Part shown: in pieces, positions 91 through 4,295 of the stretch
Layout: the number at the start of each line of letters is the position of its first letter
How positions within the stretch are numbered: position 1 is the first letter of the stretch
Origin: Burkholderiales bacterium
Lineage (GTDB): Bacteria; Patescibacteriota; Minisyncoccia; Phycocordibacterales; UBA9973
Direction: 5' to 3'
Assembly (NCBI GenBank): GCA_023701005.1
Contig: JAMPXW010000002.1
Coordinates: 1 to 45,346 of the forward strand
DNA: 45,346 nt
The notes under the pieces: model-generated
The model's input: the letters and a program-made list of their open reading frames with translations, nothing else
Database searches by the model: none
Told to the model about the DNA's origin: nothing
Program-made: the position numbers and the translations under genes

Positions 91-207
91 ATATTTATGA
101 TATTACCTTCAGTCCGTCCAAGCTATTGAACCATTACGAAAAATTTGACTATTGTTTGCATAAGTAGTAATTTAAAGAAAAAGTACATCACAAAAATAGA
201 GGAAAAA

Positions 208-717
208 ATGGAAGAGAAATTATTAGTTCCTGATCCGCCACAAGTAACTATTGTAGTGGAAGAGAAAGCAAAAGAAAATCTACAAAAATGGATATCTTTT
301 ATAAAGAATTTATCTCCTAGAATTTTAATAGAAGATAATATTTCTAGAGAAAGATTGTATTCTTTGTATAATGCTTCAAGAAAACTTTGTCATCTTGATG
401 AAGATGATCAAATTGTAGATTGGCCAGAACTTCAAGATGTTGCTTTCGTTGTTTTCATTAATTCTTCACATACCAAATCTGATAATTATCTTCTTCCAGA
501 TATTTATATTTTTTGTTATAGAAATTGGGCTTTTTCTTTAGATCATTTTCAACGTGATAGTAATGATGAAAAAGATGAGTATGTAGACTACAACACATAT
601 TCACTTAAAGACTTTCCAGAAGAAGCATTATCTTGGGAACATGTTTCTGGTACATTAATAGTTAGTGATTTAGAAAGAATTGAAAAAACTGTTCCAGATT
701 TAAAAACTAAATCTTGA
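208..717 (+). CDS. hypothetical protein
   Basis: ORF 145..717, but ATG at 208 has SD-like AGAGGA; the TTG at 145 is part of a TTGACT -35-like box (TTGACT-N17-TAATTT). Confidence 0.65.
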   Translation: MEEKLLVPDPPQVTIVVEEKAKENLQKWISFIKNLSPRILIEDNISRERLYSLYNASRKLCHLDEDDQIVDWPELQDVAFVVFINSSHTKSDNYLLPDIYIFCYRNWAFSLDHFQRDSNDEKDEYVDYNTYSLKDFPEEALSWEHVSGTLIVSDLERIEKTVPDLKTKS

Positions 718-757: not shown

Positions 758-1177
758 TTATGCTATCTTTGCTCCCAATTTTTCCAAAGGTTCAAATATT
801 GGATCTTTGTTGGTATTTTGTTGATTCCATGGATGAAGGAAGTGTCTTTTATTTAAACCGAAAGATCCAGGAATTCTTTTAGTAGCTACTTCATGCCAAG
901 AGCTAAGAAACCAAATTTGAGAATCATTATTTTTGCTTTTGGCTGCTTCTGCTATATGCCAACCAAGTCCATTTGGTGATATCATTATCAAGTAGTCATC
1001 GTTTATTGAATCGATGTCTACTTCTAAAGAAATAATACGAAACTGATCTTCCTCGATAAATTTCATAGCTTCATTAATTTTTGATGTCGCTATTATCTCA
1101 GCATCAGGAAAAAGTTCATTCCATTTTAAAACTAGTTTAGAGAGATATTTTTTTTCGTCTACTACTAGAATTTTCAT
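758..1177 (-). CDS. receiver-like / response-regulator-like small protein
   Basis: MKILVVDEKKYLSKLVLKW... receiver-like N-terminus; ATG at 1177 preceded by GGAGGG SD; the ORF track start (1237) is over-extended. Confidence 0.55.
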   Translation of the reverse strand: MKILVVDEKKYLSKLVLKWNELFPDAEIIATSKINEAMKFIEEDQFRIISLEVDIDSINDDYLIMISPNGLGWHIAEAAKSKNNDSQIWFLSSWHEVATKRIPGSFGLNKRHFLHPWNQQNTNKDPIFEPLEKLGAKIA

Positions 1178-1258
1178 CAGCCCTCCGATGATTAATAGTT
1201 TATTATTGAATGTACAATTTGTAGTAGGGTAACACAATTAACTTATATTGTCAAAATT

Positions 1259-3244
1259 TTACAACAAATCTTCTGGATCTACAAAGACCTCATAAGAAAA
1301 AGGTAAAGAGTATAAAAGGTTTGATAAATGTGAATCGAGTGAAGAATTAAGAGAAAATATTGGTAAAGACCATTTTTTAGGATCTAATTTTATTAATGCA
1401 TTCATGATATATTGGTTTTTATTTTTTGAAATAAATCCACCAAAGATGTCTGGCTCATAATCTTTGAATAATTCAGCTAATACTTTTTTAGCTTCAATAG
1501 ACCCTTCTTTGTCACCTAAATATGTTATTTTTATAAAACGTTTATATGGTGGATACTTTAGATTTTTTCTGTCTTGTAATTCTCCACGAACAAAAGAAAG
1601 TAGATTTTCTGATTTTACAGCAAGTAATGCTCCATCATTTTTGTTTTTAGTTTGTATTATTAATTTTCTTTCAGTATTAGAAAGGATAGAGATTAGAAGC
1701 TGAATAATTTTCTCGCTTATTTTATAATTTGGTATCGTCCAAAGTCCATCGAAAGAAGCCATGACAGATAAATTAACTTTTTCTTTTAAATAGAAAAATG
1801 CCATTTCAGTTCCTATTAAAATAGAACCGTGATTCTTTGTAAATTCTTTTATTACTTTTTCTGCTTCATTTGATGTTTTAACAGATTCTTTATCTAATTT
1901 AAAAATTTTATTGTTTGGAAAATGATTTTTTATTTCTTCAAAAATAGTATCTGTGCCTATACCAAGTGGCATAAGATTCCAGCTATTGCAATTAAGGCAT
2001 CTGGTTTCAGGGTCTTTTTCAGTATTACACTTATTACAAGCAAACATTCTTTTTTTACCATCACGAGAAAGATACAAAACAAGGGGAGCCAGACATTTAT
2101 CACAGTTTATTGTTTCATTACAATCTTTACATACTGTATACGTGGCCAAGCCTTTTCTTAAAGAGAATATAAAAACATTTTTCTTATTGTTCAAAGTATT
2201 TTCTATCTCTTCCAAAGATTCGTCACTAATTATTTTAAATTTTGTTGTTTTTTTATTTTGTTCTATCTCTGTTATGTGTTTTTTGTTTTTGTTTGTGTCT
2301 ATTATATCTATTTTTATTCTGTCAAAATTTGTTCTAAATGATATAGGATATACTTCACCAAGGCCTTCAGTGTTTAACCTTTCTATGGTTTCAAATCGCA
2401 ATAATGTATCAGCTAATATGAATTTGGCCCCTATTTTTGAAGCGAAAATTTCTGCGAAAGTTCTCATGTCTAAATGAGGTTTTGGAATCATTTTATAAGC
2501 ATTTGAACTTTCATGTTCTACGATTATTGTAGAGATATCCATACGAGGAATAGACAAAAATTGTGTAGTTCCCAATATCAATACTCCATGTTGAGAATTT
2601 ATTATTTTTTCATAATTTTCTAAAATCTTTTTTGTTTTTAAACCTCCATGCATAGAAAAAGTGAAATTCTCTATTCCTTTTGAGAGAGCTTGTTCGAAAA
2701 GTTCTATGTCGTACTGAGAAGGTAAAACTATAAAAACAGATTTTTTGAGTGCAAAATTTCCTCTTATTAAAGTTTTATAAAAAGACAACCTATCTTCTAA
2801 GCTTGCTTGAAATAATAATTTTTCAGTTAGGATGTTCTTTTCTAAGGACAGTCCTTGGGTAGGCTCTTTTAAGGACTGTCCTTTAGGAGAAAATTTTTCT
2901 ATTTCGTCGTACTTTTCTCTGAAGAGAGATGGAACTAAGGAAATTACAGCATTGTTTTTCTTTGCTACAAAATAAGAACTTAAAAGAAAAGTTGATTCTA
3001 AAAATTCATCTCGAAAGATTGAATGTTTTTTTACTTCAACAATTTTTTTTAATTTGAAAGACATATCTTTGATTCCAGATTTTATATCTTCTACATCTTG
3101 AGAAGAGATTACCAATCCTAAGATATTTTTGTTACGTACCGGCACGTTTACGATACTGCCATTTTTGACGTCTTTCGAAGTAAAATAAGTCAAATCTGTC
3201 TTAAAAACTCCTTTTTGTAACGGGATAACGGTCACAATTTTCAT
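1259..3244 (-). CDS. priA: PriA-like primosomal protein N' with degenerate helicase motifs
   Basis: Four CxxC pairs (CKDC, CDKC, CNKC, CLNC) in the PriA zinc region and PriA-like C-terminus (YPPYKRFIKITYLG); Walker A/B and motifs V/VI not recognisable. Confidence 0.8.
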   Translation of the reverse strand: MKIVTVIPLQKGVFKTDLTYFTSKDVKNGSIVNVPVRNKNILGLVISSQDVEDIKSGIKDMSFKLKKIVEVKKHSIFRDEFLESTFLLSSYFVAKKNNAVISLVPSLFREKYDEIEKFSPKGQSLKEPTQGLSLEKNILTEKLLFQASLEDRLSFYKTLIRGNFALKKSVFIVLPSQYDIELFEQALSKGIENFTFSMHGGLKTKKILENYEKIINSQHGVLILGTTQFLSIPRMDISTIIVEHESSNAYKMIPKPHLDMRTFAEIFASKIGAKFILADTLLRFETIERLNTEGLGEVYPISFRTNFDRIKIDIIDTNKNKKHITEIEQNKKTTKFKIISDESLEEIENTLNNKKNVFIFSLRKGLATYTVCKDCNETINCDKCLAPLVLYLSRDGKKRMFACNKCNTEKDPETRCLNCNSWNLMPLGIGTDTIFEEIKNHFPNNKIFKLDKESVKTSNEAEKVIKEFTKNHGSILIGTEMAFFYLKEKVNLSVMASFDGLWTIPNYKISEKIIQLLISILSNTERKLIIQTKNKNDGALLAVKSENLLSFVRGELQDRKNLKYPPYKRFIKITYLGDKEGSIEAKKVLAELFKDYEPDIFGGFISKNKNQYIMNALIKLDPKKWSLPIFSLNSSLDSHLSNLLYSLPFSYEVFVDPEDLL

Positions 3245-3281: not shown

Positions 3282-4295
3282 ATGGGATTTTTTTCAAGGA
3301 AATTGGGTATAGATTTAGGTACAGCTAATACGTTGGTTTTTCTTCCTGGCCGAGGTATCGTTTTAAACGAGCCTTCTGTCGTTGCTGTTTCTGAACAAGA
3401 TAATAAAATATTAGCTATAGGTTTTGAAGCTAAAGACATGATAGGAAAAACTCCAGAGTCTATAATTACTTACTGCCCAATGAAAGATGGAGTTATTGCA
3501 GATTATAGAGTCACAGAAGCAATGCTTCATTATTTTATTAATAAAGCCTTAGGTAAATTTAATTTATTCAAACCAGACGTGATGGTCTCTGTTCCTGCTG
3601 GAGTCACAAGCACTGAAAGACGAGCTGTGGTGGAAGCCGCTATTCGTGCAGGGGCTAGAAATGCTTATGTCGTTAAAGAACCAATACTCGCAGCTATAGG
3701 AGCAGGTATTCCTATTTATGAATCTAAAGGATACATGGTAGTAGACATAGGAGGAGGCACCACAGATGTAGCTGTGATATCTTTAGGAGGAATTGTAGCT
3801 TCTACTTCAGTAAAATGTGCTGGAAATAAAATTGATCAAGCCATCGCAGATTATATAAAGAAAACTTTTAATCTTGCTATTGGAGACAGGACAGCAGAAG
3901 AAGTAAAGATAAAGATAGGCGCAGCTGTTCCATTGGAAGAAGAATTAAGAGTCACAATAAAAGGACGAGATTTTATTCAAGGTTTGCCAAGATCAGCACA
4001 AGTCGGGACGAATGAGATAGTGAAAGCAATCGATGCAGAATTAAAACAAATCGTTAAAGCTATAAAAGATGTATTACAAGAAACCCCTCCAGAGCTTGCT
4101 TCAGACATAATGGATTATGGCATCATAATGACAGGTGGTTCTTCTCAGTTACGAAATCTTACGGATTTGGTTTATAGGAAAACAGGTGTTAAAGCTGCTC
4201 TCGCAGAAGATGCTTTGTTTTGTGTGGTAAAAGGTACAGGCATAGCTTTAGAACATTTAGATGTTTATAAAAAAACAGTTTTAAGTAAGAAATAA
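3282..4295 (+). CDS. mreB: rod shape-determining protein MreB
   Basis: MGFFSRKLGIDLGTANTLVF..., VVDIGGGTTDVAVIS, GGSSQLRNL. Confidence 0.97.
   Translation: MGFFSRKLGIDLGTANTLVFLPGRGIVLNEPSVVAVSEQDNKILAIGFEAKDMIGKTPESIITYCPMKDGVIADYRVTEAMLHYFINKALGKFNLFKPDVMVSVPAGVTSTERRAVVEAAIRAGARNAYVVKEPILAAIGAGIPIYESKGYMVVDIGGGTTDVAVISLGGIVASTSVKCAGNKIDQAIADYIKKTFNLAIGDRTAEEVKIKIGAAVPLEEELRVTIKGRDFIQGLPRSAQVGTNEIVKAIDAELKQIVKAIKDVLQETPPELASDIMDYGIIMTGGSSQLRNLTDLVYRKTGVKAALAEDALFCVVKGTGIALEHLDVYKKTVLSKK

Follow-up and report, generated by a model that had tools for sequence, protein, structure and literature searches.

The priA gene in the window (the whole stretch of 45,346 nucleotides that was analysed) encodes a PriA homologue that is not a PriA helicase. 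At all five former helicase/ATPase motifs it carries other residues, which are lineage-specific and in part invariant, and the protein is under purifying selection. We consider it likely that this is a catalytically dead PriA, maintained by selection, which attaches to forks and brings in DnaB independently of ATP. A pseudohelicase PriA is already known from D. radiodurans, and E. coli PriA deprived of its ATPase can still reload DnaB. What is new here is the depth, breadth and probable recurrence of the loss, together with the finding that priA is undetectable in 25 of 68 congeners, with a conserved orphan ORF in its place at the 14 such loci examined. As the helicase activity of E. coli PriA is dispensable, its retention by most bacteria is a puzzle, and the phylum studied here amounts to a large natural experiment in which the motor was probably lost repeatedly, the body of the protein was kept and the gene is often gone. 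Comparing related species in which PriA is intact, dead or missing would directly test the purpose of the motor and the way in which DnaB reloading proceeds when the known loaders are absent.

PriA identity and the former helicase motifs

The frame of the gene is uninterrupted, with no internal stops or frameshifts (Table 1). Its 661-aa product matched the NCBIfam profile TIGR00595 (2.6e-57 over profile positions 15-439, under the curated cut-off of the model) and, above the gathering score, the Pfam family of the 3'-DNA-binding domain (3'BD), while none of the helicase-domain Pfam families was matched. PriA proteins were the only significant solved relatives in a PDB sequence search (E. coli PriA 6dcr, 2.1e-19). 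An AlphaFold model built with 17 relatives (mean pLDDT 82.5, pTM 0.81) was compared to the PDB with Foldseek, and the top nine matches were PriA (best 1.8e-37), first among them 8fak and 6dcr, the latter with the winged helix deleted. The assignment to PriA made in the preliminary description was thus confirmed by family profile, PDB sequence and fold. A search of the host genome (692 kb in five contigs, 99.4% complete; closest named relatives Candidatus Nomurabacteria) with the TIGR00595 profile found no second PriA, the remaining matches being UvrB, a DEAD-box helicase, an HsdR-like protein and RecG, as named by sequence inspection. Two ORFs downstream of priA, at 145-717 (+) and 758-1237 (-), had no NCBIfam match and no Pfam match worth naming, and counterparts were absent from the priA loci of relatives that were searched.

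Table 1. Features of the priA locus, with one example of the orphan ORF found at priA-lacking loci. Residue numbers are those of the 661-aa protein.
Feature	Coordinates	Strand	Basis or E. coli counterpart
Predicted pseudohelicase PriA	1259..3244	(-)	661 aa + stop, single open frame
3'-DNA-binding domain, residues 1-105	2930..3244	(-)	PF17764 5.8e-6; aligned to E. coli PriA 1-104
Short linker, residues 106-140, replacing the E. coli winged-helix domain	2825..2929	(-)	Alignment
Former motif I / Walker A, QASLEDRL (146-153)	2786..2809	(-)	E. coli GVTGSGKT
Former motif II / Walker B, EHESS (243-247)	2504..2518	(-)	E. coli DEEHD
Former motif III, ADTLL (278-282)	2399..2413	(-)	E. coli GSATP
Former motif V, AFFYLKE-like (482-488)	1781..1801	(-)	E. 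coli AKGHHFP
Former motif VI, SILSNTER (519-526), with deletion	1667..1690	(-)	E. coli QVAGRAGR
Cysteine-rich region, 4 x CxxC (372-419)	1988..2131	(-)	Eight Cys present
C-terminal domain, about 573-661	1262..1528	(-)	AlphaFold model and alignment
mreB, divergent neighbour	3282..4295	(+)	Pfam MreB_Mbl 2.7e-131; synteny
Orphan ORF, example	L311:1501-1851	(+)	Also upstream of mreB in L296-L309

The motif sites were located by alignment to E. coli PriA, and motifs I, II, III, V and VI were each found to be replaced. The replacement strings given in the preliminary description proved correct within about one residue, and the same alignment bore out its claim that the motifs are replaced with the zinc cysteines intact, all eight being retained (at 372, 375, 381, 384, 403, 406, 416 and 419). 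Its further statement that the 4 x CxxC region and the C-terminal domain (CTD) remain agrees with both the alignment and the AlphaFold model. No intact Walker A or Walker B was found elsewhere in the 661-aa protein.

Overall, the window PriA has the 3'BD, the two RecA-like lobes, the 4 x CxxC region and the CTD in common with canonical E. coli PriA (8fak, 6dcr), but it lacks both the helicase motifs and the winged-helix domain. Intact Patescibacteria PriA, represented by L037-L044 within the class and by L227-L256 among others outside it, shares this arrangement of domains and likewise has no winged helix but, unlike the window PriA, has the motifs. The linker that stands in place of this domain has a median length of 21 aa in the pseudo forms and 28 aa in intact Patescibacteria PriA, compared to 101 aa in E. 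coli. Loss of the winged helix was rejected as a marker of dead PriA because intact Patescibacteria PriA is also without it, and loss of Asp17 in the 3'BD was rejected likewise, this position being mostly Ser/Thr in both forms. Positions Y18 and K61 (K/R) of the 3'BD are the same as in intact Patescibacteria PriA.

Constraint at the former motor sites and spread of the loss

Residues at the old sites were compared across an order-level set of 80 homologues, roughly 35-75% identical to the window PriA. The position of the catalytic Lys230 is Arg in all 80 (Arg152 in the window protein), that of Gly224 is Gln in 79 (Q146) and that of Glu322 is Glu in all 80, while the catalytic Glu321 position holds Glu in only two. 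D279, at the position of E. coli S356, was present in 77 of the 80, the position of R587 (the last arginine of motif VI) is a gap in every one, and the eight cysteines are retained throughout. This pattern is not a product of chance, since it is shared by all 80 homologues. The preliminary description had called the motifs erased; the loss stands, but "rewritten" is the better word because invariant new residues occupy the old sites. Nei-Gojobori dN/dS was 0.11 in the single pair with a clearly unsaturated dS (0.16) and ranged from 0.03 to 0.13 in other pairs, in which dS was near or at saturation. By this measure, the dead helicase core was under constraint equal to that on the rest of the protein. 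The invariant residues and the low dN/dS therefore argue that the gene is not a pseudogene, and no sign of decay was found in the intact frame, the dN/dS of about 0.1 that includes the dead core, or the invariant cysteines.

PriA was sampled across the class and the phylum by match strength and from part of the matches only, so that the numbers that follow are counts and not frequencies. Proteins were scored as intact on the basis of the Walker A GK, the motif II DE and the first motif VI Arg. By this scoring, intact proteins numbered 8 among the 87 from other parts of the class and 41 among the 65 from outside the class, and there were none among the 38 classifiable proteins of the order. Walker A was missing from 38/38 classifiable proteins in the order and from 79/87 of those sampled elsewhere in the class, and 17 proteins overall retained the motif II D-E with Walker A missing. 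Loss of the motor is thus common to most PriA sampled in the class. The loss of the ATP motifs noted beforehand for this one gene holds, but the survey of Patescibacteria/CPR PriA indicates a state that belongs to most of the class, in which Walker A is lacking, and that is not specific to the gene. No relevant report on PriA in Patescibacteria, CPR or Parcubacteria was found in the open-licence literature, mainly at the level of titles and abstracts. The few intact PriA of the class (L037-L044) all read DEEQD for DEEHD, and several of them have an altered motif VI (QVGGRSNR, QLAGRVRR, QLIGRTGR).

A PMSF tree was calculated with the motif columns removed and eleven long or doubtful rows left out, and dead PriA fell into four groups on it. 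The first comprised 44 rows, made up of most of the class and four others (SH-aLRT 99), and the second two rows of family f66 (L059, L171), placed beside intact class members; the third and fourth consisted of four rows outside the class and one single row. Intact Patescibacteria PriA was largely separate from the pseudo clades. A single origin of all dead PriA was rejected by an AU test (p = 0.003), a result to be read with the long branches and with a grouping defined after the first tree. Repeated loss is probable because regain of five motifs is unlikely. The motor of PriA was therefore probably lost more than once within the phylum, the exact number being unsure given the long branches, and family f66 apparently represents a separate loss.

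The mreB locus and genomes without priA

In the genus of the window, priA was divergent beside mreB-holB at all 19 loci with full flanks; beyond the family, the mreB link was present in only a few order-level loci, within flanks of about 1-1.5 kb. PriA at about 1e-20 or better was counted by hand in 126 of 237 class genomes among the matches listed, and about 55 of the other class genomes, searched again with a profile of 36 class rows, yielded no full-length PriA. In one genome (G115) a PriA C-terminus directly adjoins a masked stretch, and the absence there is thus not real, and in another (G114) a PriA fragment lies at a contig end. A genome of the same order (G219) has a 280-aa frame, at L321:1099-1941 (-), of which only the N-terminus corresponds to PriA, as the 3'BD, followed by an unrelated tail; this is possibly a further-reduced PriA.

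Within the genus, priA was found in 43 of the 68 genomes. A conserved orphan ORF of about 110 aa occupied the place of priA beside mreB at all priA-lacking loci examined (14/14), and it occurred in 22 of the 25 priA-lacking genomes compared to none of the 43 priA-bearing ones (22/68 in total), so that both an exchange of the two genes and their mutual exclusivity were seen in the genus. The mreB tree was weakly resolved, and its starred branches force only two priA/orphan changes. Comparison of the orphan ORF with Pfam, PHROG and PDB sequences gave no match, its model, which was poor (pLDDT 65), gave no convincing one by fold, and no homologue was matched in 197 order genomes. The idea that it is DnaD-like or another of the known restart proteins was rejected for want of a family, sequence or fold match.

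A putative role in replication restart and its alternatives

DnaB, DnaA and RecG are present in the host genome. DciA was not found in it, nor was a DnaC/DnaI-type loader, the sole IstB-family match being DnaA by sequence. In E. coli, the hand-off from PriA to DnaB proceeds via PriB and DnaT. In the proposed mechanism, PriA would bind abandoned forks through its 3'BD, its zinc region and the pair of dead RecA-like lobes. DnaB would be recruited or positioned from the fork-bound PriA, which would allow the replisome to be rebuilt with no ATP hydrolysis. Lagging-strand unwinding would be performed not by PriA but by another enzyme, for which RecG is one candidate, and the old nucleotide site is probably fixed in one shape by Arg152 together with the Glu that is invariant at the E322 position. 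This scaffold function, which the preliminary description had suggested and which the analysis supports, fits the biochemistry of D. radiodurans PriA, which has no ATPase and does not unwind yet binds forks and DnaB (PMC4504706), and that of the E. coli K230A variant, which has been employed in in vitro DnaB-reloading assays (PMC10175261). The ATPase/helicase activity of PriA is also stated to be dispensable for PriA-PriB restart in vivo in E. coli (PMC10175261). For the lineage studied here, we infer both the ATP independence and the role in restart. A point against a scaffold is that priA is not universally needed, being undetectable in 25/68 congeners. It is doubtful that PriA is an ATP-free DnaB-loading platform which replaces the missing DciA/DnaC and was later displaced, in part of the genus, by the protein of about 110 aa taking over its function; such a takeover of restart by the orphan ORF is speculation.

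PriA could instead have been repurposed beyond replication restart, for example to a fork-independent DNA-binding role tied to mreB, as its divergent linkage to mreB throughout the genus, its distance from canonical PriA and its absence from many relatives might suggest. We regard this as unlikely, because the link, being scarce beyond the family, looks like gene order rather than function, and because the 3'BD (with Y18 and K61 as in intact PriA), the cysteine-rich region and the CTD are all retained. The protein might also still bind ATP as a structural ligand or switch and hydrolyse it weakly or not at all, similar to some pseudoenzymes that retain ligand binding, and the conserved polar or charged residues at the old site (Q146, E/D 151, R152, E/D 243, E245) are in keeping with this. 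It is, however, rather improbable, since the P-loop has lost its glycines, lysine and threonine, motif II its catalytic Glu and motif VI its Arg, motifs III and V are gone, and K230R alone abolishes the ATPase of E. coli PriA (PMC4504706). That the gene is functionless and decaying toward loss would agree with its absence from 25 of 68 congeners and from much of the class, but this is highly improbable given that almost all copies found have a long, intact frame, and given the low dN/dS, also in the dead core, and eight invariant cysteines and new invariant residues that persist down to roughly 35% identity.

The fork-binding scaffold preferred here has its closest counterpart in D. radiodurans PriA, likewise a PriA homologue with lost ATPase and helicase activities, a loss that in the window protein is predicted from sequence. 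A DnaB-recruiting role is presumed in both. The Walker A Lys is changed to Arg in D. radiodurans PriA (PMC4504706) as in all 80 order-level proteins, and a PriA with a non-functional Walker A/B, which is what defines the pseudohelicase, is what the window protein appears to be at the sequence level, placing it putatively with the D. radiodurans kind. In Deinococcus-Thermus PriA, the match to motifs I and II is poor (PMC4504706), whereas the replacement in the window PriA extends to all of motifs I, II, III, V and VI. The two lineages also differ in that the one studied here belongs to another phylum, has fixed new invariant residues and comes from a phylum for which a single origin of the dead form was rejected. 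Actinobacterial PriA, that of a second bacterial group, is annotated as without detectable helicase domains and is regarded as degenerate. Some of the PRK14873 NCBIfam models, which represent this Actinobacterial PriA, were weakly matched by the window PriA.
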